DNA from: Pseudoduganella albidiflava
GTDB lineage: Bacteria > Pseudomonadota > Gammaproteobacteria > Burkholderiales > Burkholderiaceae_D
Assembly: GCF_004322755.1 (NCBI RefSeq)
Contig: NZ_CP036401.1
Span: forward strand, 5,394,001-5,458,000
Direction: 5' to 3'
Length of the DNA: 64,000 nucleotides
The position numbers and the translations under genes are program-made. Below, piece after piece: positions 26,565 to 36,130 of the stretch. The number at the start of each line of letters is the position of its first letter. The stretch's first letter is position 1. The notes beneath the pieces are model-generated. The model had not been told where the DNA came from. It made no database searches and saw nothing but the letters and a program-made list of their open reading frames with translations.

Positions 26565-27905
26565 TTATTGGCCGGGGTTATGCACCAGGGTGCGGAAGTC
26601 CAGGGCCTTGACGCCCGCATCCATGCGGACCTTGAATTCGGTACCGTCCACGTTCCAGCCTTCCTGCTGTTCCAGGGTCGGCGCGGTCTGGCCGTCCAGG
26701 TACGACACTTCGACGGTGTCGTACTTCGCGTGGTCGGCCGTGCCATACCATTTCGCGGCCGAGTTCGCGTCCAGGCGAGCATCGGCGATGACCTTGAAGG
26801 TGTTGCGCACCGAGTTGGGCACGGTGTTGTTCTTCGCTGCCGCACCGACTTCGTATTCGCTGTCGCGAACCACGTTTGCCAGGCCTTCCAGGGCCAGCGG
26901 CACGATCAGGTTCGCCAGGCGGATATTCAGCGTGGCATTGCCATCGCTTTGCTTGCCCATCAGCACGCGCGCCGCGTCGACGCCACCGGTACTGATCGGG
27001 CCGCCGGCCAGCAGGTTGTTGTGCGTGGCGTGGAACAGCGGATTGCCATCGGCCATGGCCGGGTTGCTGGTCAGGATTGCGTAAACCAGGTCGCCGATCG
27101 TGCGGATCGCGGCGCGGCCCATGATGCGCGGCAGCTTGGCGAAGGCATCCAGGTCGTCGTTGATGATGGTCTGGCGGGTGATCGAGAACAGCTTGCCGTA
27201 GGTGGCCAGCTGCACCTGTTCGCCGCGCTCGCCGACGGAGGCGTAGCGGTACTCGCCGCCATCACGCACGCGGTCCAGCGCCGGGAAGGTGTTCAGGTCC
27301 AGGCGCATACCCGGCTTGAAGTCCGACAGCGTGCCCTCGGCCGTCCACAGCTGGAACGTCTCGTCGGCTTCTTCGTAGCCCTTCAGCATCGCCTTCTCGG
27401 CGATGTTCGACAGCAGCTGCGGGAAGTCACTGCCCGTATGCGTGAAGGCAGCGGCCACCAGGCGCATCTTGTCCATGCCGCCAGCCTTGACGCCAGCGCG
27501 TGCCAGGCATTCGCGTGCAATGTCCATCAGCGTGAAGCCGCGGTAATTGTTGGCTGCATCGTCCTTGGCGATCTTCGAGCGGGCCATCAGCGAGGCCTGC
27601 ATGCCGGCGCGCATTTTGTCGCGCTCGTCTTCCAGGGTGATGATGTTGCCGCCGGCAGTCGGCGTGGCATCCTTGCCCAGGTGGGCCAGCAGCTTTTTGC
27701 CGGCGTCGTCGGCGCTGCAGTTGATATCGTTCTGGCACGTGGCCATCAGGGCGGTGACGCCGGCACGCTCGGCAAAGCTGGCGAACAGCTCGCTGATGCT
27801 GATGCGGCGGGTCTGGTCAGCCTGCAGGGCGGCACGAGCGGCGGCGTCGCGCTCCTGCTGCAGTTGGGCCGCATTCACGGGGCCGTCGGTATTTTCCGGT
27901 GGCAT
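26565..27905 (-). CDS. Possible separate scaffold-capsid product from an internal start
   Basis: Within the fusion gene, an ATG at 27905 (MPPENTDGPVNAAQLQQERD) is preceded 8 bases upstream by AAGGAG, a far better ribosome-binding site than expected by chance inside a coding region. It falls exactly at the linker between the protease and the scaffold-capsid part. Initiation here would give many copies of scaffold-capsid without protease, as lambda makes Nu3 from inside C. This is inferred from sequence only. Confidence 0.55.
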   Translation of the reverse strand: MPPENTDGPVNAAQLQQERDAAARAALQADQTRRISISELFASFAERAGVTALMATCQNDINCSADDAGKKLLAHLGKDATPTAGGNIITLEDERDKMRAGMQASLMARSKIAKDDAANNYRGFTLMDIARECLARAGVKAGGMDKMRLVAAAFTHTGSDFPQLLSNIAEKAMLKGYEEADETFQLWTAEGTLSDFKPGMRLDLNTFPALDRVRDGGEYRYASVGERGEQVQLATYGKLFSITRQTIINDDLDAFAKLPRIMGRAAIRTIGDLVYAILTSNPAMADGNPLFHATHNNLLAGGPISTGGVDAARVLMGKQSDGNATLNIRLANLIVPLALEGLANVVRDSEYEVGAAAKNNTVPNSVRNTFKVIADARLDANSAAKWYGTADHAKYDTVEVSYLDGQTAPTLEQQEGWNVDGTEFKVRMDAGVKALDFRTLVHNPGQ

Positions 27906-28637
27906 GGGATTGCTCTCCTTGGTGGATGGTTTGGTGGTTGTCGCAGCCGATGCTGCCGGGGAAACAGGGGGACGGAACGCGGCCTGGTGCCGGGCCTTGG
28001 CCGCGGCAGTCAGCGATGCCGAAGCTGCAACAGGAACAGCGGCCACGGTCTCGTCGATGAACTTTTCGGCCAGCGCCTGTTCGGCGGTGTACCAGTGATC
28101 CTTGCCGTCGGTGAGCATTGCCAGCACGTCAGCCTTGTCCTTGCCGGTCTTGCCCGCATAGGTGGTCGACATCGCATCGGCCCAGCTATCGAGCATGTCG
28201 GCGTATTCGCGCATCGCGGCGCTGTTGCCGACCTGATAGCCCCAAGGTGCGTGAATCATCAGCTGGGCGTTCTCGGCCATCTGCACGGTGTCGCCGGCCA
28301 TCGCGATCAGGCTGGCGATGGATGCAGCGATGGCGTCAACCACGATGGTCACTTTCGCCTTGTGCCGTTTGATGGCGTTGTGGATGGCGATGCCGTCGGT
28401 GACGGAGCCACCGTAGCTGTTGATGCGGATGGTCAGCACGTCCACGTCCAGGGCGGCGATCTCGCGCACGAAGTCTTTCGCGGCGATCGTGTCGCCATAC
28501 CAGCTTTCGCCGATATCGCCGTAGATCAGGATCTCGGCCGCTGCGGCGTTGATCGCGCCCGCACGTGCGGAGGCGCGGATCGTGTACCACTTTTGTGCTG
28601 CTGGCGTGTTATTCGCCTGAGGGTTCGAAGTCGGCAT
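26565..28637 (-). CDS. ClpP-like prohead protease / major capsid protein fusion, 690 residues
   Basis: The N-terminal 210 residues are a ClpP-like protease: LTIRINSYGGSVTDGIAIHN, the nucleophile Ser region VDAIAASIASLIAMAGD, and the His in AENAQLMIHAPWGY. A Pro/Thr-rich linker (SPAASAATTTKPSTKES) leads to a helical scaffold-like part (NAAQLQQERDAAARAALQAD) and then an HK97-fold major capsid domain with FPQLLSNIAEKAMLKGYEEA, YGKLFSITRQTIINDDLDAF and ADGNPLFHATHNNL, a pattern shared with Mu gpT-like capsid proteins. The protease presumably frees itself and trims scaffold and capsid during prohead maturation. Fusions of this kind are known in some siphophages. Position -40 holds a conserved 29-bp element. 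Confidence 0.9.
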   Translation of the reverse strand: MPTSNPQANNTPAAQKWYTIRASARAGAINAAAAEILIYGDIGESWYGDTIAAKDFVREIAALDVDVLTIRINSYGGSVTDGIAIHNAIKRHKAKVTIVVDAIAASIASLIAMAGDTVQMAENAQLMIHAPWGYQVGNSAAMREYADMLDSWADAMSTTYAGKTGKDKADVLAMLTDGKDHWYTAEQALAEKFIDETVAAVPVAASASLTAAAKARHQAAFRPPVSPAASAATTTKPSTKESNPMPPENTDGPVNAAQLQQERDAAARAALQADQTRRISISELFASFAERAGVTALMATCQNDINCSADDAGKKLLAHLGKDATPTAGGNIITLEDERDKMRAGMQASLMARSKIAKDDAANNYRGFTLMDIARECLARAGVKAGGMDKMRLVAAAFTHTGSDFPQLLSNIAEKAMLKGYEEADETFQLWTAEGTLSDFKPGMRLDLNTFPALDRVRDGGEYRYASVGERGEQVQLATYGKLFSITRQTIINDDLDAFAKLPRIMGRAAIRTIGDLVYAILTSNPAMADGNPLFHATHNNLLAGGPISTGGVDAARVLMGKQSDGNATLNIRLANLIVPLALEGLANVVRDSEYEVGAAAKNNTVPNSVRNTFKVIADARLDANSAAKWYGTADHAKYDTVEVSYLDGQTAPTLEQQEGWNVDGTEFKVRMDAGVKALDFRTLVHNPGQ

Positions 28638-28676
28638 GCGTGTTCCTTATTGGATACACACAGTGTCGCTATTCAA

Positions 28677-28705
28677 CTGTCCACTTTCTACGGGAAAAAG
28701 TGGAC
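28677..28705 (-). promoter_or_regulatory. 29-bp conserved element, capsid copy
   Basis: The element begins CTGTCCACTTTCTACGGG and ends AAGTGGAC, with 8-bp inverted arms GTCCACTT and AAGTGGAC. It matches 32541-32569 at 26 of 29 positions and lies 40 bases before the protease-capsid start, as the other copy lies 39 bases before gpW. It is a candidate activator-binding site. Confidence 0.75.
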
Positions 28706-28799
28706 TCTCGAAAAATTTGGGATATCCGCAGCCCTAATATCGTTCGTTCAAATGCAAGGGCCTCGGCAGCGCCGCTCCCTGCCGGATGCCGAGGCCAAG

Positions 28800-29036
28800 C
28801 TAGATCGCCGTATATGTGAACGGTTCGAGGAGTTTCTCCAGGTCGGCTTCGGTCATTGTCACGAACTGCGCGTCGACTGGCTGGAAGTCCAGCCCATAAC
28901 GGCGTACCTCGTAGTCAAGGTCGGTCTCGTCATGCCGTGTCTTGACCTTGATGTAACCGGTCTCGACTTTGAATTCGGCGTAAAGGCACGCCTCGCCGCA
29001 GCAGGCCGAGACCCACGTAATGTCGCTCAATTTCAT
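28800..29036 (-). CDS. Hypothetical protein, 78 residues
   Basis: The protein MKLSDITWVSACCGEACLYA onward has a Cys-Cys-x-x-x-Cys cluster near the N-terminus that may bind metal, and an aromatic middle. No family is recognised. The start is fixed by an ATGA overlap with the upstream gene; a longer frame would read into that gene. It is the last gene of a short cluster before the capsid gene and is followed by about 90 bases of non-coding DNA containing the late element. Confidence 0.6.
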   Translation of the reverse strand: MKLSDITWVSACCGEACLYAEFKVETGYIKVKTRHDETDLDYEVRRYGLDFQPVDAQFVTMTEADLEKLLEPFTYTAI

Positions 29037-30535
29037 TTCCGGTCCATCCCATAGTAAAAGCCAGTAATCCCATCGCAAACGCGCAGCTTCCCTTCCAGCT
29101 CCAGCGCGCGAATATATGCCATGGATTTTTCGAATGCAGATCGAGTAATTGCAAGGGTGCTGCCGGTCAAATCCTCTCCGCTGCCCGTATCAACTACAGA
29201 AATCGTGTGCCAGAACGGGAACCACGTGTCGCCGTACCGAACGATCACATCGATCACCCGCTTGATCTTCGAGAACTGCTGCAAACCGTTCACGGTAGAC
29301 GTGACGCCGCCGGTGACATTGATGACACACGAGCTCGTATGATTCCCGATATCCGAGGCGCCGACATGGTGAATATTCGGCACGCCGAACGCTGTCACCG
29401 CCACATTCATTTTCCGCGCATGCCGCTGCAGTTTGATGCCCAGATTCTTGATAACTTTCTCGGCGAGCCGGCTCGTGGACGACTGGGGCGAGCAATAAAA
29501 CTCACCGCCGCGCGTCATGCCCTGGTTGCGATAGTACGCATTGACCGCATTGATTTCGTAAGCGATCTCGGCCGGGTTCGTCAGCGTGCCATTGGCCAGA
29601 TGGTTGGTCGTGTGGTTGGTGCAGTCCCAGCCCGCGTCGTAGGCTGCTTTCAGCAACGCGTTGCCGCTCGACCAGTCGGTCACCGTTTTCGATGCCGGAG
29701 CTTCCCAGACCCGCTTCGGGGCAGCCGTGTAGCCAACCCATCCGTACTGTGCAAACAGGGGGAGCGTGATGGAGGTGAGCTTGTCCTCGGTCACGTCAGT
29801 GCCGAGAACCATTTGTGGTTCAGTTTTCCAATCGGTAATGAGCGAATCGAAGTACAACGTGGCACCAGTCCAGCCGGCCAAGGCAATCTTGATGCCGGCA
29901 ATCGGCAGTGCCTTGATATTGGCCTCCGCACCGTTGAATACTGTCGGGGAAACGCCGAACGGGTGATCTTCGCTAACGCCCGAGCCTGGAACGTATGCCG
30001 CCGGATCTTCCATCACGAATGACAGAAAATTCCACCCCTCGATCAGCTGGTTCGAATTGAAGCCGACCTGAAGCGCGAAACCGGCACCACTAGTTTTCAG
30101 CGCAATCGCAATGCTGCCATTGAGCGTGCCACCTGGTTCATAACCAGGCTGGTTCTCGATATAGACCCACAATCCGATGCGGCCGTCCAGTGCAGTCGTC
30201 AGAAGGTTTGTCCCCGGCGCGCTAAGAATGATCTCTTCATTGCCGTTCCCGGCTGTGACGTATTTCAGGATATTCGGCTGCGAAGTAATGCTCGCCACCG
30301 GCAGCTGGTTGCCGCTCGCGTCGTAACCACTGTAGTTCTCTTTTACTGCGGGCACGCCGCCATTCTGGCCCCACGTGGCAACCGAGAAGAGTGCAACCAC
30401 CTTGCCCGCCCGCTTTACCGGTCGCGTAATTGTCGTCGGCTGGCCGCTGGGGAGATATGCTGAAGTATCCGGCTTGTCCGTTTTGTCCAACAGCCCCAGG
30501 ATCTGCGCGTTGCGCACGAAGTCGCCGAGGCTCAT
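29033..30535 (-). CDS. Polysaccharide deacetylase-like protein in the head module, 500 residues
   Basis: The C-terminal half is like NodB/CE4 deacetylases: MVLGTDVTEDKLTSITLPLF at the first-motif place, YGWVGYTAAP, and CTNHTTNHLANGTLTNPAEI with the H-[ST]-x-x-H metal motif, then AYYRNQGMTRGGEFYCSPQS. The first-motif TFDDG is altered, so activity is uncertain. The N-terminal half is a jelly-roll-like region (LDGRIGLWVYIENQPGYEPG, GWNFLSFVM) suited to binding glycans. Between portal and capsid genes such a gene is unusual; it may be a virion decoration or depolymerase acting on host surface sugars. ATGA overlaps couple it to both neighbours. Confidence 0.65.
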   Translation of the reverse strand: MSLGDFVRNAQILGLLDKTDKPDTSAYLPSGQPTTITRPVKRAGKVVALFSVATWGQNGGVPAVKENYSGYDASGNQLPVASITSQPNILKYVTAGNGNEEIILSAPGTNLLTTALDGRIGLWVYIENQPGYEPGGTLNGSIAIALKTSGAGFALQVGFNSNQLIEGWNFLSFVMEDPAAYVPGSGVSEDHPFGVSPTVFNGAEANIKALPIAGIKIALAGWTGATLYFDSLITDWKTEPQMVLGTDVTEDKLTSITLPLFAQYGWVGYTAAPKRVWEAPASKTVTDWSSGNALLKAAYDAGWDCTNHTTNHLANGTLTNPAEIAYEINAVNAYYRNQGMTRGGEFYCSPQSSTSRLAEKVIKNLGIKLQRHARKMNVAVTAFGVPNIHHVGASDIGNHTSSCVINVTGGVTSTVNGLQQFSKIKRVIDVIVRYGDTWFPFWHTISVVDTGSGEDLTGSTLAITRSAFEKSMAYIRALELEGKLRVCDGITGFYYGMDRK

Positions 30536-30753
30536 TGCTTCACCCAGTCCGATTCGCCAGTGAGCACGCCGTTGGTGTAGGTGAAGGTCTTCACGTACAC
30601 CATACCGTCGACGGTCCACGTATCAGTGGTCAGGAGTCCGCCCACGTAGGCATAGGTATGGGAGCCGGCCGAAACTGGCATCATGACCGGGATCACCGCG
30701 CCGCCGGCGCCAGGGTTCGCAACAGCCGCACCCGTACTAGTTGATTTATTCAT
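30532..30753 (-). CDS. Small hypothetical protein, 73 residues
   Basis: The protein MNKSTSTGAAVANPGAGGAV onward ends GMVYVKTFTYTNGVLTGESD plus WVKQ. It resembles short beta-rich structural accessory proteins that precede appendage genes, and its coupling to the deacetylase-like gene (ATGA) suggests that the two act together. It overlaps the portal stop by 8 bases. There is no known motif. Confidence 0.55.
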   Translation of the reverse strand: MNKSTSTGAAVANPGAGGAVIPVMMPVSAGSHTYAYVGGLLTTDTWTVDGMVYVKTFTYTNGVLTGESDWVKQ

Positions 30754-32272
30754 TCTCTTTCCTATCGTCGTTGAGATTGCTTTCGGCGCCCGTCTTCTGC
30801 TGGTTGGCGAAGTCGCTGCCGAAGGCCAGGCCCTTCTCGTTGGCTTGTTTCCGGAATGCCGCGATCTGCTCCAGCACGTCCCGAGGATTGCCGCCGCGTT
30901 TGCGAATTACTTCCACTTCGCTAGCGAATCCGTCCTGTACCAGGGAGTGCCACGCCAGAGCTTCCTTGAGCGGGTCAATCCATGGCATCGACTGGCCGAT
31001 GAACAGCGCGTCGTCTATCGATTCCGGCATCAGGTCGGCCGGCGGATTGGCCAGGCCGGACAGGCGCGCGGCCTTCACGAAGTCCTTCCAGGCCGGCTGC
31101 ACGAACTGGCCAACGAAGTCGTCGGTCAGCACGGCATAGTGAATCCACTGCTCGACCAGCTCCTGGCGCTGCGCCGAGTACGTGCCGTTGTAGTCGCGCG
31201 CGATGCTTGAATAGCTGCCGCCCAGGCCGGCGGCGACCGCGCGCAGCTGGCCCTGCCGGAAGTGGATCAGGTTCGGATTCGGGCGGTTCGAGTCGATCAT
31301 GCCGATCTCCTCACCGGGCTTGAGCGAATCAATGACCATGCCGGGCGCCATGCCGATCTCGCGTACACCGGAAGTAGTGTCGGCCTCGGCGTAATCATCC
31401 GGGCCGCCCTTCTTGACGTACACGGTCAGCGCCGCGGCCACTTTCGCCGCAATGCGCTCGGATTCCTCATAGTCCTTGATGTCTTCGAGCCGCGTGATCA
31501 CGCTAGCGAACTCGGATATGCCTCGCGTCTGGCCGATCCGGTCCAGGCTGGCCACGTGCAGCATATTGGCCGCGTCGATCCGCTTGAGTTCGTAGGAGCC
31601 CTTCCCCCAATTGTCGGAGCCCGGGAATGCCTTGTAGACCCAGTAGCCGACTGCCTTGCCCCAGGCATTGCGTTCTACGCCCTGCGCGATGCGGCGGTCG
31701 GCATCGGCATAATGCAGCGGGAGATAGTCGGCCTCCATCAACTCAAGGGAGTATGGCACCCGGCTGCCGTGATCCAGGAATGGTACGGCGCCGATCAGGC
31801 GCTGCGCCAGCACCTCGCCATCGCGGATCCAGGTCTTCGCAGCCAGGCGCTGGACCTTCGACCAGGTGTGCTTGTGCGTGACCTCGGGCTTCTGCACCCA
31901 GTCGCGCCACAGCGTGCGCAAGGTCGCTGCGTATTCCTCGTGGATCGAGCCGTCGCGCCGACGCGGCTGCGGCTCGATGCCGATCCCGTTCGCGCCGATC
32001 ACGTTATTGACCAGCACGCGCAATGCGCCTCGGGCGATATCGTGGTTTTGCTCTAGGTCGCGCGCCAGCGCACGCAGGGTAGCTGCGCTTTGCCGCACCT
32101 GCATATCCGGCGAACGGTGGTCACGCTTGCCTTTGCGGAGGCGCGACGGCTTTGCCGCCTCGTACTGGCTCAGCACCCGGCGCGCGGAAAGCCGGCGCAG
32201 GCCGGCGGTTGGGGAAAAGTAGGCGACCAGCCGATCGACAACGGTGAGCGGGACGAAGGTCCGCGCGCTCAT
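30746..32272 (-). CDS. Portal protein, lambda B family
   Basis: This 508-residue protein forms the dodecameric DNA gate at one capsid vertex. Recognisable segments are RALARDLEQNHDIARGALRV with LVNNVIGANGIGIEPQ, then TWSKVQRLAAKTWIRDGEVL, RNAWGKAVGYWVYKAFPG and GGSYSSIARDYNGTYSAQRQ, all conserved in lambda-type portals. The C-terminus carries the usual EVEVIRKRGGNPRDVLEQIA. It follows gpW by an ATGA overlap, as W-B do in lambda. Confidence 0.92.
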   Translation of the reverse strand: MSARTFVPLTVVDRLVAYFSPTAGLRRLSARRVLSQYEAAKPSRLRKGKRDHRSPDMQVRQSAATLRALARDLEQNHDIARGALRVLVNNVIGANGIGIEPQPRRRDGSIHEEYAATLRTLWRDWVQKPEVTHKHTWSKVQRLAAKTWIRDGEVLAQRLIGAVPFLDHGSRVPYSLELMEADYLPLHYADADRRIAQGVERNAWGKAVGYWVYKAFPGSDNWGKGSYELKRIDAANMLHVASLDRIGQTRGISEFASVITRLEDIKDYEESERIAAKVAAALTVYVKKGGPDDYAEADTTSGVREIGMAPGMVIDSLKPGEEIGMIDSNRPNPNLIHFRQGQLRAVAAGLGGSYSSIARDYNGTYSAQRQELVEQWIHYAVLTDDFVGQFVQPAWKDFVKAARLSGLANPPADLMPESIDDALFIGQSMPWIDPLKEALAWHSLVQDGFASEVEVIRKRGGNPRDVLEQIAAFRKQANEKGLAFGSDFANQQKTGAESNLNDDRKENE

Positions 32273-32502
32273 GCGTCACTCCCGAAGCGGGCGACCGAGA
32301 ATCGAAGACCGCCAAATTTTGGCGCAGCCTTGGCAGCGGGCGTCTCCGCAGCAACCCGGGCTTCCCATTCCCGCCGGCCGGCCTGGACGAACGCCAGGTC
32401 TTCCATCCGGAGGGTGCGGTCGGCGAATTTAACTTCCTTGCCTTCCAAGATTGCGGTCTCGGCGGCAAGGTATTTTGCGAGCATGTCAGTAGCGTTTGTC
32501 AT
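32269..32502 (-). CDS. gpW-like head completion protein, 77 residues
   Basis: The sequence has an N-terminal helix (MLAKYLAAETAILEGKEVKF), a short hairpin (ADRTLRMEDL) and a second helix (QAGRREWEARVAAE), which is the gpW fold, and it lies between terminase and portal as in lambda. It closes the portal before tail joining. The ATG at 32502 is chosen over a GTG at 32529 because the conserved 29-bp element then sits 39 bases upstream, matching the 40 bases at the capsid gene. Confidence 0.75.
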   Translation of the reverse strand: MTNATDMLAKYLAAETAILEGKEVKFADRTLRMEDLAFVQAGRREWEARVAAETPAAKAAPKFGGLRFSVARFGSDA

Positions 32503-32540
32503 CGGGGCCTCTGTTTGATGCCCCGACACTACGCCTCAAG

Positions 32541-32569
32541 CTGTCCAGTTTCTACGGAAAACAGTGGAC
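32541..32569 (-). promoter_or_regulatory. 29-bp conserved element, gpW copy
   Basis: The element begins CTGTCCAGTTTCTACGGA and ends CAGTGGAC. It differs from the capsid copy (28677-28705) at three positions and lies 39 bases before the gpW start on the minus strand. The inverted arms are less perfect here (GTCCA and TGGAC). Confidence 0.75.
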
Positions 32570-32615: not shown

Positions 32616-33062
32616 TCACGTTGTGTGATATGGCTCAGGATCAAGGGGATAGCCTTTGAGAACTGAGACTGTCGCACCGGCTCGCCTCCTGAAGCCCCAG
32701 CTGCCCGAAAGCCAAGCACTAAGCTCACGAGAATATACGCTTTCCCACTCCTCCCCCTGAAGGCGAGTAGACAGTGGCCGGAGAGCCAGCTCAGTCTCTT
32801 TTCCGTGAAGTCCGCCCTCCGCCTTCGGCAGATTGTAGGAAGCCAAGTAGAGTTTTCCCGTCATATTCTTATACCCTGCAAATTTCGACGGTACGAAATG
32901 GAACCAACCGGTCTCATCAACATACGCGTACCAGTGATGGACTAAGGGCACAATTCGCTGCAGGCCATAGGCTAGCTCTTTGTCCTCTATGTCTTTGTTG
33001 AAACGAATGGCGTTCTGAACAACGTCATCGACGGTGGTAACGAATTGGTGGTATTTGCGCAT
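32616..33062 (-). CDS. Hypothetical protein, inserted in the head module
   Basis: The 148-residue protein starts MRKYHQFVTTVDDVVQNAIR and contains HHWYAYVDETGWFHFVPSKF and EGLHGKETELAL-like stretches; I do not recognise it. It has more A+T than its neighbours and its own upstream control region with four 9-bp repeats. It has no counterpart in lambda. It therefore looks like a moron, a cargo gene that a lysogen may express on its own. It is not essential to the lambda-like head order. Confidence 0.5.
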   Translation of the reverse strand: MRKYHQFVTTVDDVVQNAIRFNKDIEDKELAYGLQRIVPLVHHWYAYVDETGWFHFVPSKFAGYKNMTGKLYLASYNLPKAEGGLHGKETELALRPLSTRLQGEEWESVYSRELSAWLSGSWGFRRRAGATVSVLKGYPLDPEPYHTT

Positions 33063-33231: not shown

Positions 33232-33522
33232 TCATCCGCCCTTGATGATCTTGTAGAACGCGCTGCGGCCCAGGCCGTACCGTTCCATCAGCTCGCGGCG
33301 ATTGGTCATGTTGTACTCGGCACGGATGGCCAACGCTCGTTCATCAGGATCGGGTCGGCTCTGCTTTACGTACACCTCCTGGCCGCCGAAGTGCAACCGC
33401 ACCTTCTTCTCAATCGCGCGCTCAACTTCTTTCGAAAACACCTCGGTACCAAGTGTGTCCCGAACTTCCTTCAACAGCATGGCGACTACGTCCGGCTGCT
33501 TGTACCGTTGTATCGATTTCAC
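33232..33522 (-). CDS. Mor-family transcription activator, 96 residues
   Basis: The C-terminal half reads ALAIRAEYNMTNRRELMERY and GLGRSAFYKIIKGG, the HTH signature of the Mu Mor/C activators (I-[RK]-x-[ED]-[YF]-N-G-x-N ... Y-x-I/V-I). The N-terminal half is a dimerisation-type region (MLLKEVRDTLGTEVFSKEVE). Mor switches on middle or late phage promoters with sigma-70. It is ATGA-coupled to the terminase gene, so it is made along with the packaging genes and is well placed to activate head and tail promoters. Confidence 0.8.
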   Translation of the reverse strand: MKSIQRYKQPDVVAMLLKEVRDTLGTEVFSKEVERAIEKKVRLHFGGQEVYVKQSRPDPDERALAIRAEYNMTNRRELMERYGLGRSAFYKIIKGG

Positions 33523-35603
33523 GAGAACCCCCTACCCATCCAGTCGTCCGACGCGAACCCGGAAGATCCGGTGCGCCGGGGTTGGTCCGCCGGCTTTGCC
33601 ACCGGCGCTGCTGCCGGCTCCTGTTTCGCGGGAGCCTGAGGTACGACCACAGGGGCAGGTTCCTCGATTGTCATCGGCCCCGCGAACAGGTCGACAATCG
33701 CCGGCTGCACCAGCGCTTCCAGCTGCTCCCAGTACACGGCCTTCTTTTTCCCCAGTTCGAGATGAGTCTCCAGCCACACTGTGTAGACCGTGCAGTCCCA
33801 GGCCTCGACCCGCTTGCGTAGCGCAGTCCAGCGCGATTCCCGGCCGCCGGCGGTCGCCCGCTCGACACGGGCCTCGCCGGCCATCTGTTTGAAGAACTCG
33901 TCACTGGCGTCCTTCGAGAAGTGCACATAGCCCGGGCCCGGCCTGGTGATCTGCAGGCGGCCATAGATCAGGTCTTTCGCCAGGTTGGTACCGACCTGCC
34001 ACAGGATCATGCCCTTCTTGCGCTTCTTGCCGCGCCAGTCGATATCGACCTTCGACGCACCATCCTTGATATGCTTCTCGCGGCCGGACCGGCCTTTCAC
34101 GGCGAAGATGCGGTGGCCCTTCTGTGCAGACGTCTGCACGAAGTTGTACACGGCCTGTGTATTGTGGCCGCCGGTGTCGATCGCGCTGGCGTAGATCTTC
34201 AGGCGCTTTCCGCTCGCGTGCGCGAATTCCTTGTCGAAGAGGTATTCGGCCACGTCTTCCCAAACTTGGTCCTCCTCCGGATTGCCGTAGCAGACTTCGT
34301 GGTCGACCAGCCATTTCTCGCAGCCGCGGCCATAGGCCCAGACTGTGAGCTCGATGCGGTTGGGCTGCGTGTCGCAGCCGGCCAGCAGCTGAAGCCCACC
34401 CATGGGAACGGTGTCGAACTTGTAGGGCTCGGCCCGGTCCTTCAGTGTGTCGGCCTCGGTCTTCTCCACGTCCAGCGCCCAGGTCTCGCCCAGCGTCGTG
34501 TTCGTGAAGGCTTTCAGCTTCGTGATGTCGCCGGACTGGGCCTTCTCGTACGCCTCCATGAAGTCCTGCACGATCGAAGCCCAGTTCACCGCCGGGCTGT
34601 ACGCTGTCCACACGTGGAAGGCGATATGCGCCGGCGGCGTCACGACCTGGCCAGCACCGTTACGGAACACGCCGTCGAAGTCGATCGTCATGCTGCCATC
34701 GACATTCTGCCAGCGGCCCAGATCGGCCACGGCCAGGTATTGGCCCTGGTCGATCAGCGCGCTGCAGTGCGGGCATAGGTGGCGCACGGTAGCCGGGTCG
34801 CCATCCACCCACTTGAAACCCGTCGTGTCGTCCTTCTTGCCCCAGGCAAGCTTGTGGAAGCCTCCGCACTCGGGGCATGGAATCGCGTAGGCGAATCGTT
34901 CGTCCGCCGCGTTGTACCGGTCCTCGATCAGCGAGAAGCCGCCCAGCTTGGGCGTGGAGCCTGTGACAAATTTCGGGAACGTCGCGCCCTCCACACGCTT
35001 GCGCGCCAGGATGTCCGGCGAGCCTTCCTTGTCGATGTCGCGCAGGAATGCATCCAGCTCGTCGAGGTAGGCCACGTCGACCGAGATCCGGCGGTAAGCG
35101 CGAGCCGCGGTGCCACCTCGCGTGTGCAGCAGGCAGCCCAGGAACTTCTTCTGCGCCAGGGTGTTGTCCTTGTTCCTGGAGACGTGCGCCGGCATCGCGC
35201 GCTCCATCACTTTCACGTCGCGCAGCATGGTGTCCAGCTCGGTCTTGACGAACTCGTCGCTGTCGCCATCGGTTGGCTGCCACAGCACCTGGTTGCGGCG
35301 CTTGTGCTCGGCGAAGTAGCCGATCGCGGCCAGCAGCATCTTCGTGTAACCCACCCGGGCCGACTTCATGAAGTCCAGGTCGCGGATATCGTCGTTACCG
35401 ATACACGCCAGGATCGCGCGCTGGAACGGCCATGGCACCCAGTTCTGCTCGACGTACGACGATTCCTTCGACAGGTAGAAGTTTTCTCGCGCCCACGCTT
35501 CGAGCGTTTTTGGCTCGGGCACGCCGAACGCACCCAGGCCACGCCCTACGGTGGCTTCAAGCTCCGGCGACTGCCAGCCGACCACCTCGTACATATCGCT
35601 CAT
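33519..35603 (-). CDS. Terminase large subunit, GpA family
   Basis: The 694-residue protein is the ATP-driven packaging motor and nuclease. It has FMKSARVGYTKMLLAAIGYF as the Walker A region, a Walker B-like VDVAYLDELDAF, a zinc-finger-like CPECGGFHKLAW with a following CPHC, and the nuclease part with GHNTQAVYNFVQTS and the HIKDGASKVDIDWRGKK region. It extends past the lambda GpA core with a Pro/Ala-rich tail. Its ATGA overlap with the small subunit marks coupled translation. Size fits the family. Confidence 0.94.
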   Translation of the reverse strand: MSDMYEVVGWQSPELEATVGRGLGAFGVPEPKTLEAWARENFYLSKESSYVEQNWVPWPFQRAILACIGNDDIRDLDFMKSARVGYTKMLLAAIGYFAEHKRRNQVLWQPTDGDSDEFVKTELDTMLRDVKVMERAMPAHVSRNKDNTLAQKKFLGCLLHTRGGTAARAYRRISVDVAYLDELDAFLRDIDKEGSPDILARKRVEGATFPKFVTGSTPKLGGFSLIEDRYNAADERFAYAIPCPECGGFHKLAWGKKDDTTGFKWVDGDPATVRHLCPHCSALIDQGQYLAVADLGRWQNVDGSMTIDFDGVFRNGAGQVVTPPAHIAFHVWTAYSPAVNWASIVQDFMEAYEKAQSGDITKLKAFTNTTLGETWALDVEKTEADTLKDRAEPYKFDTVPMGGLQLLAGCDTQPNRIELTVWAYGRGCEKWLVDHEVCYGNPEEDQVWEDVAEYLFDKEFAHASGKRLKIYASAIDTGGHNTQAVYNFVQTSAQKGHRIFAVKGRSGREKHIKDGASKVDIDWRGKKRKKGMILWQVGTNLAKDLIYGRLQITRPGPGYVHFSKDASDEFFKQMAGEARVERATAGGRESRWTALRKRVEAWDCTVYTVWLETHLELGKKKAVYWEQLEALVQPAIVDLFAGPMTIEEPAPVVVPQAPAKQEPAAAPVAKPADQPRRTGSSGFASDDWMGRGFS

Positions 35604-36130
35604 GCGTCGATCACCTCGTCGGACCCCGCGCCCCGGTCTTCATCAGATTCCGCGCCGGAGTCACGCAGGTCCGCCAGCGACATGCTCGCCACGATGTTGC
35701 GCACGCGCGCGATCTCCGCGCCGATGTTCTTGATCTCGTCGCCGGACAGCGCCGGCACGCGGCGCTTCACGGCGCCCGGGATCCCTTCCAGGATGCCCGC
35801 GATCTTGCCGCCGGCCTTCGACAGCACTTCCTCGATCAGCGTTACTGGCGCGAGCTCGCCGCGCGTGACGGCGTTCTGCATCTCGATCCGTTCGCGCTGG
35901 GCCTTCGCCAAGCCCGCCCGCTCGTTCACCAGATCGAGCTCGCCATTGCTGGCACGGCCGGCGGCTTGCTCGCGCAGGTGCGCGCAGTACATCTGCAACG
36001 CCTGTCGCGCCGGCACCTTCATATCCAGCACGCCGCGGCCAACCAAGTTGCCGATCGCCTGCTGCGTGACACCGACCAGCGCGCCGAAAGCTGCCTGCGT
36101 CATGGGTTCGTTCAGGTCAGTCGACAACAC
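35600..36130 (-). CDS. Terminase small subunit, Nu1 family
   Basis: The N-terminus MTQAAFGALVGVTQQAIGNL followed by VGRGVLDM forms the winged-helix DNA-recognition motif of Nu1, and the middle (NERAGLAKAQRERIEMQNAV) is the charged helix that binds GpA. It recognises the cos site and recruits the large subunit. An ATG six to nine codons further in (MTQAAF) is possible. It lies just after a non-coding interval of 117 bases that could hold part of cos. Confidence 0.85.
   Translation of the reverse strand: MLSTDLNEPMTQAAFGALVGVTQQAIGNLVGRGVLDMKVPARQALQMYCAHLREQAAGRASNGELDLVNERAGLAKAQRERIEMQNAVTRGELAPVTLIEEVLSKAGGKIAGILEGIPGAVKRRVPALSGDEIKNIGAEIARVRNIVASMSLADLRDSGAESDEDRGAGSDEVIDA

Follow-up and report, generated by a model that had tools for sequence, protein, structure and literature searches.

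The window is the whole 64,000-nucleotide stretch of the Pseudoduganella albidiflava genome analysed here, and it contains a phage head module encoded on the minus strand in the order terminase small subunit (Nu1), terminase large subunit (TerL), a Mor-like gene, a 148-aa ORF, a dyad, gpW, portal, cargo genes, a second dyad and a protease/capsid gene. The small terminase subunit (35600..36130), the gpA-type large subunit (33519..35603) and the portal (30746..32272), which lies behind gpW and presumably under the gpW promoter, were assigned by PHROG and Pfam matches. The Mor-family regulator downstream of the large subunit (33232..33522; Pfam PF08765, PHROG 532) is a protein of 96 aa with a recognition helix at residues 86–94 that includes S87, A88 and K91. 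The gpW head-tail connector (32269..32502; PHROG 118) was assigned an ATG start after comparison of protein starts, and the alternative GTG at 32529 would fall inside the -10 box described below. The protease/capsid gene (26565..28637; PHROG 133, Pfam Phage_capsid_4 and CLP_protease) encodes a fusion of a ClpP-type protease with the major capsid protein. Accessory genes occupy two places in this order, which we refer to as cargo slot A, between the Mor-like gene and the gpW promoter, and cargo slot B, between the portal and the capsid promoter. Here slot A holds the 148-aa ORF (32616..33062, no PHROG or Pfam match) and slot B (28800..30619) holds a polysaccharide-deacetylase-like ORF of 528 aa (PF01522, E 6.8e-6) and an ORF of 92 aa, all on the minus strand; none of the three had a PADLOC match.

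The gpW and protease/capsid genes are both transcribed leftward and, as an earlier sequence-only reading of this DNA had pointed out, each is preceded by one copy of a 29-bp element (CTGTCCACTTTCTACGGGAAAAAGTGGAC at 28677–28705 and CTGTCCAGTTTCTACGGAAAACAGTGGAC at 32541–32569) with 26/29 identity between the two. Counted from the first base of the element on the plus strand, the protease/capsid ATG (28637) is 40 bases away and the gpW ATG (32502) 39 bases away. We found no third copy in the window at ≤3 mismatches (0/100 shuffled windows gave a match), and the genome-wide motif scan which that reading had proposed, run with a 27-base pattern at the same tolerance, again left just these two copies in the 7.44-Mb (7,437,157-base) genome. 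The dyad proper is 27 bp long in each copy and is a putative site for the Mor-like protein. The capsid-promoter dyad (28679..28705, minus strand; coding strand GTCCACTTTTTCCCGTAGAAAGTGGAC), which was delimited by its sequence and by the dyad pairs of relatives, has Watson–Crick pairs at 10/11 arm positions, and the gpW-promoter dyad (32543..32569, minus strand; coding strand GTCCACTGTTTTCCGTAGAAACTGGAC), delimited by its sequence, has them at 8/11. We also considered the element as an intrinsic terminator in its own right and dropped this because neither arm is followed by a run of Ts.

A first scan of viral contigs with the capsid as query gave 61 loci, several of which had a comparable pair at both positions but with a different sequence (e.g. 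GTCTCATTTCTCCCTAGAAATGAGAC). Further scans with the capsid, of genomes as well as viral contigs, and two named phages then brought the set to 300 loci, from which we retained 231 unique loci with a capsid match after dropping L001, L002, the Mu locus, loci without a capsid match and duplicates. We compared 270 nt around the gpW start (or the portal start where gpW was missing) with 270 nt around the capsid start and took the best pair of 25–27-nt dyads, scored by identity and symmetry only. Both regions were available for 154 unique loci, the others lacking a gene or ending too near to it, and the dyad pair scored higher than any of 308 shuffled controls in 95/154, including the window; an earlier version of the search, on 65 loci, agreed with this. 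Four of the 95 pairs had no anchor at both copies (L029, L031, L049 and L080). In all 91 anchored pairs the two sites of one phage were of equal length (27/27 in 45, 26/26 in 42 and 25/25 in 4), and arm positions differed by 7% between the copies of one phage, compared with 25% when the gpW copy of one phage was set against the capsid copy of another (36 phages). A search for extra sites in 1.52 Mb of loci, which cover at most about 22 kb each and not complete phages (for the window alone, the search took in the entire host genome), found three weak matches with five arm mismatches each, none with a -10 box. Separately, we note that a second dyad, GTCYAACCTC..GAGGTTRGAC, is present in L004, L006, L007, L016, L048 and L050.

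The letters past the dyad are mostly variable, yet position 13 was A in 172/190 sites and position 17 was T in 177/190, giving the pattern TAnnnT. Although this box was not used in the pair search, A13 and T17 were found in both copies in 85/95 pairs and in one copy only in a single further pair, compared with both copies in 1/59 of the loci below the threshold. Allowing the register to shift by 1–2 nt raised the number with a -10 box in both copies to 91/95, with L230, L223, L224, L041, L037 and L252 having the box one base away in both copies. In the window this register places the capsid -10 box GACACT at 28662..28667, with A and T at +13 and +17 past the dyad, and the gpW -10 box TAGTGT at 32526..32531. 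Both have the A at position 2 and the T at position 6 expected of a sigma70 -10, as had most sites of relatives, but good consensus in both hexamers was not found: the -10 hexamer had 3/6 matches in 154/172 sites, and a generic promoter scan with a threshold of 9 of 12 called neither window site. Our first idea of a promoter lacking a -35 was nevertheless dropped, as there were 4/6 matches to TTGACA at a 17-bp spacer in 104/172 sites and 3/6 in 56/172, while random places, given the best of five spacers, had ≥4 matches in 288/1720. The -35-like hexamer TAGAAA (4/6, 17-bp spacer) occurs in 27 gpW and 28 capsid sites among 58 representatives of each, and in the window it lies in the proximal half of the capsid dyad (28685..28690), 17 bp from the -10, and of the gpW dyad (32549..32554). 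The proximal half, including a T beyond the arm, is more conserved than the distal half, and the conserved T, G, A and A of TTGACA make the two halves asymmetric. The DNA directly before the dyad is A/T-rich.

A start would be expected some 24 nt beyond the dyad, which would then span approximately -50 to -24. For the window this predicts transcription starts near 28655 for the capsid gene, with an 18-nt leader containing AAGGA, and near 32519 for gpW, with a 17-nt leader. Start codons across the relatives keep a register with the predicted start, with the first in-frame gpW ATG 0–1 nt from it in 30/86 phages and 18–21 nt past it in 37/86, with none at 10–15 nt, and we predict that the gpW mRNA is leaderless in the first group of 30/86. 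The capsid ATG was 0–2 nt from the predicted start in 7/86, and for three capsid genes the ATG scored lies at -5 and is probably an in-frame codon ahead of the real start. Terminator-like stems were found within 150 nt before the dyad in 29/86 capsid and 5/86 gpW sites, compared with 49/860 random windows; the window capsid site has a weak 6-bp stem only, and a general scan found no terminator before it.

These features bear on whether the element might act as RNA instead, as a hairpin in a long head mRNA that controls translation, processing or stabilisation ahead of gpW and the capsid gene. In many relatives the arms can indeed fold into stems of as many as 11 pairs around a 4–5-nt loop if G–U pairs are counted, but several pairs make imperfect stems (the Duganella type has 8/11 Watson–Crick pairs) and Rfam gave 0 matches at the gathering threshold in the window. 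The hairpin would also fall outside the predicted transcript, the gpW ATG sits on the predicted start in the 30/86 phages noted above, the fixed -10 and the terminator-like stems before 29/86 capsid copies would be unexplained, and the dyad covaries with a helix that reads DNA (see below). We consider a role as an RNA hairpin very improbable.

A second possibility is suggested by the variable cargo found directly upstream of both copies, namely that the repeats are recombination or insertion points through which cargo entered the head module. The dyads are mostly found with empty slots, however, as slot A was <100 nt in 65/86 phages (the largest was 1985 nt) and slot B <150 nt in 62/86 (the largest was 5973 nt), and such a role would leave the directionality of the sites, with their -10 and start register, and the helix covariation unexplained; we give it hardly any credence, even less than the RNA hairpin. 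We sampled the cargo itself as 73 ORFs of ≥90 aa from 39 filled slots, leaving out the window, and scanned 49 of these. Among the matches listed, from Pfam and, for PADLOC, from the first 25 of 62 matching families, were AriA/AriAB-like proteins, PDC-S35, methyltransferase, TIR, PIN, DUF4062 and AbiEii-like AAA proteins, nearly all from one ORF each. The layout marks two cargo slots in which defence-like or other accessory genes lie directly before what would be a promoter restarting head expression.

The sequence-only reading had also placed a Mor-family gene in the same module, and this is borne out by the product of 33232–33522, which scored 31.5 bits against PF08765, above the family cut-off of 24.9, and matched PHROG 532, annotated as late transcriptional activator. 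It matched Mu Mor at E 0.007 as a single sequence and at 1.1e-11 as a profile, with C also matched, and the profile search matched the Mu Mor and C structures. A structure model (pLDDT 83, pTM 0.44) has helices at residues 59–69, 75–82 and 86–94 and a putative C-terminal helix-turn-helix; the top seven Foldseek matches were all to Mor/C but weak (E 0.017–0.21, none at 0.001, TM ~0.4). A Mor gene was present in 89/89 pair-bearing loci with a terminase compared with 33/54 other terminase loci (Fisher p 7e-11, uncorrected for relatedness). Conversely, 0/21 loci with a terminase and no Mor match had the pair, and in 33 loci with both a terminase and a Mor gene no pair was detected.

We then compared the half-site bases with each variable column of the Mor, gpW, portal, capsid and TerL proteins in 86 distinct phages (1503 columns). 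The two best columns for base 5 were both from Mor, 114 and then 111, with adjusted mutual information of 0.60 and 0.51 compared with 0.31 for the best non-Mor column. For base 6, Mor column 114 led (0.50), followed by a portal column (0.40) and Mor column 111 (0.39). These columns correspond to K91 (114) and A88 (111) of the window protein, both in the recognition helix. When the set was thinned to 58, 42 and 18 phages (1317, 1525 and 1278 columns), columns 114 and 111 took ranks 1–2 for both bases each time, and with 58 phages they also led when the gpW site or the capsid site was used alone, the latter being about 2 kb or more distant. For base 4, portal columns outscored Mor columns, and Mor column 110 (S87) was second at one thinning level. 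In a leave-one-out prediction of base 5, residue 114 was right for 52/58 phages, the nearest portal relative for 37/58 and the nearest TerL relative for 33/58. We reject coevolution of the whole Mor protein with the dyad, as a partial Mantel test of whole-Mor and dyad distances was not significant (r 0.085, p 0.22, 36 phages); general divergence does not mark out Mor, and only the column-by-column comparison does.

The residue at column 114 and bases 5–6 of the half-sites are related as follows. Phages with Arg (34) had CA in 129, CG in 6 and GG in 1 of 136 half-sites, while those with Glu (14) had GG in 49/56 and GC in 7/56. AG was found in 21/24 half-sites with Ala (6 phages) and in 15/20 with Gln (5 phages). 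Lys (19 phages) was associated with CA in 35, CC in 19, AC in 11, CT in 8 and others in 3 of 76 half-sites, Ser (5 phages) was mixed, and Asp, Leu and a gap were each found in one phage. A base-5 rule of C for Arg, Lys and Leu, G for Glu, and A for Ala, Gln, Ser and Asp fits 320/340 half-sites, leaving out L011 with the gap at column 114, though the rule was drawn from the same data that it fits. At least two of the four half-sites were off the rule in L177, L129, the window, L041 and L268. The window has K91 and thus belongs to the ambiguous Lys class, and its half-sites, mostly GTCCAC, miss the Lys-to-C rule. Column 111 may refine this, as the Lys phages with GTCCAC or GTTCAC (the window, L177 and L129) have Ala or Ser there and the other 16 have Gln, but L026, a near-duplicate of L011 that had been dropped, combines Gln and Lys with GTCCAC and breaks the refinement. 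The association is also visible between close relatives, as L141 (helix SRTRIYE, half-site GTCCGG) and L135 and L221 (SRARIYD and SRARIYA, mainly GTCCAG) differ by 7–8% in their portal proteins.

The rule could be applied to loci not used in its making. Matches to the Mor-like profile at E 1e-6 were found in 37/399 genomes of the order and 23/294 of the family, from which 30 stretches were taken and six set aside as loci already used, leaving 24; 17 of these have a Mor gene without this head module in the stretch taken and seven have it. The seven unseen loci share at most about 75% DNA identity and ≤62% Mor identity with the loci used. In 6/7 the top dyad pair, from a search blind to the code and to the -10, lay before gpW and between portal and capsid; L383 has no capsid match, and in L382, L384 and L385 the capsid match starts 550–600 nt further on. 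The pair in the seventh, L357, came from a search that demanded a -10 box and T as base 2. The base-5 rule fits all seven, with Arg and C in L379, L382, L383, L384 and L385, Gln and A in L358, and Ala and A in L357. The -10 was found in 12/12 sites of the six loci from the blind search, and in L358, where the dyad scored is a core of 25 bases, it lies one base further along. L360, an already-used locus with Glu, has one GTCCGG half-site before the capsid gene which was found by a targeted look.

The closest known systems are those of phage Mu. The likeness to Mu Mor and its promoter Pm (PDB 1rr7, 9l0y) consists of a homologous protein, a dyad upstream of the -10 preceded by A/T-rich DNA (a proximal UP subsite in Pm according to PMC4390567), and a promoter immediately behind the gene of its activator; in the Mu record Pm adjoins the end of mor, and a C-activated late promoter that of C. 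Pm, in contrast, has a 16-bp dyad with 5-bp arms and a 6-bp G/C-rich spacer, centred at -43.5 (PMC4390567), without a recognisable -35, as the -35 region has only one or two base matches (described in PMC4287176). The dyads described here are 25–27 bp with arms of ≤11 bp, are centred around -37 from the inferred start, have a -35-like hexamer inside, and differ in sequence; the A of the -10 lies 25.5–26 bp from the dyad centre, compared with about 31.5 bp in Mu (from the Mu sequence and the primer coordinates given in PMC4390567). We found neither a -43.5-centred dyad replacing the -35 nor 5-bp inverted repeats with a 6-bp spacer, and with this geometry, unlike that of Mu, the sites would be a variant of the Mor/C kind, working like Pm, rather than Pm promoters. 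The resemblance to Pm that had been suggested from the sequence thus stands for the homologous protein and the dyad upstream of the -10, and not for the centre or for the -35-like hexamer, which is kept here. Mu C (PDB 9l0x, 9vw8), which activates late genes at several promoters (PMC4287176), namely Plys, PI, PP and Pmom, is similar as a Mor-family late-gene activator, but is a second, later protein, whereas here there is one Mor-like protein encoded inside the head module and two sites per phage. The head module itself is of the lambda type and Mu is a transposable phage. Pseudomonas phage Ostro and Hafnia phage yong2 share the order terminase–gpW–portal–protease/capsid, but they have no Mor match, their genes overlap or are close together, and no dyad pair scored above shuffles. 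In the open-access papers searched we found no description of this arrangement, only Mu papers, mentions in annotations and unrelated papers.

An operator placed over the -35 is a common repressor layout. The Mor-like protein might accordingly bind the dyads and repress weak sigma70 promoters late, balancing gpW, portal and capsid against other proteins; the dyad does cover the -35-like hexamer, which is separated from the -10 by 17 bp, and the evidence for binding is identical to that for activation. Three things count against repression: both hexamers are poor (-10 with 3/6 matches in 154/172, -35 mostly with 3–4/6), expression of the gene is presumably off in the lysogen, which would leave the capsid promoters open there, and the relatives of known function that we found, Mu Mor and C, are both described as activators (PMC4287176). 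We therefore regard repression as unlikely, though a more serious contender than the hairpin or recombination.

It is highly probable, in our judgement, that the dyads are operators of a co-regulated pair of sigma70-type late promoters bound and activated by the Mor-family protein. At the level of sequence, our comparison established that the dyads come in pairs with a -10 at a constant distance, that start codons keep to a register, that the pair goes with the Mor gene and that helix and half-sites covary; the covariation argues that the Mor-like protein binds the dyads, register and layout suggest that both sites function as promoters, and family and layout point to activation rather than repression. 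In the mechanism we propose, a Mor-family dimer encoded just behind the terminase gene would bind each 25–27-bp dyad through its C-terminal helix-turn-helix, with the residue after the conserved helix Tyr (K91) and the residue three before it (A88) associated with half-site bases 5 and 6. Bound over the weak -35 (TAGAAA), 17 bp from the weak -10 (TAnnnT), it would exert positive control by recruiting host RNA polymerase, and transcription would begin about 24 nt past the dyad, one promoter driving gpW and portal and the other protease/capsid and the genes after it. The position of the activator gene behind the terminase gene suggests a timing in which expression of the terminase operon supplies the activator and the head genes are switched on by it next; both promoters would restart transcription past the two cargo slots and, in some phages, past a terminator. 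The dedicated class of late promoter tied to the Mor-like protein that the sequence-only reading had suggested is thus favoured by the fixed -10, the leaderless starts, the terminator-like stems, the Mor link and the covariation, but in a narrower form, as there are only two sites per phage in the loci covered, both in the head module, and not all late genes are included.

These phages may well represent a large and undescribed Mor-type branch among lambda-headed phages of the Burkholderiales and beyond, with a readable helix/operator code and leaderless gpW mRNA in many, a wider claim that we hold with somewhat less assurance than the promoter pair itself. In such a code the residue after the helix Tyr would specify base 5 as C for Arg and G for Glu, with mostly A for Ala and Gln, while Lys would need the residue three before it. 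The Mor-like proteins of the window and of L219 had no match in 50,697 phage records (tblastn, E 0.01), and judged by this protein the group was not found among phage records, while it is common in contig collections. The promoter pair would amount to a control circuit of the head genes in this group that can be put to the test, the natural series of helix residues and operators makes the DNA code of the Mor family testable with natural alleles, and from the leaderless gpW starts one would expect a late mRNA of an unusual kind.

The head module contains two cargo hotspots, one lying between the Mor-like gene and the dyad (inverted repeat) before gpW and the other between the portal gene and the dyad before the capsid gene, and these hotspots hold defence-like and other accessory genes. 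Among the cargo ORFs of at least 90 aa in the 39 filled slots outside the window, 27 of 73 are on the opposite strand. The head module of the window itself includes a 528-aa ORF with a polysaccharide-deacetylase match (29033–30619).

Both dyads are intact in the L011 locus, whose shorter Mor gene (L011:3295–3495) lacks an internal stretch present in the near-duplicate L026. Dyad pairs were also found correctly placed but with differing arms (CTCGCA, CTGCCA) in two further loci, L031 (7063 and 8945), where the −10 box does not fit, and L029 (345 and 7984), where it fits in one copy only. Dyads of 25 bp occur in L382, L384 and L385, which have the same circuit of Mor and paired dyads and whose portal and capsid proteins match the models weakly. 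We note that six relatives have another dyad, GTCYAACCTC..GAGGTTRGAC, located 5' of their terminase genes (L004:1466, L006:1573, L007:2214, L016:982, L048:1121 and L050:736).

The predicted transcription start coincides with the gpW ATG (0–1 nt apart) in 30 of the 86 distinct phages, including L074, L225, L219, L091, L079 and L149, and from this spacing we predict that the late mRNAs of these phages would be leaderless.
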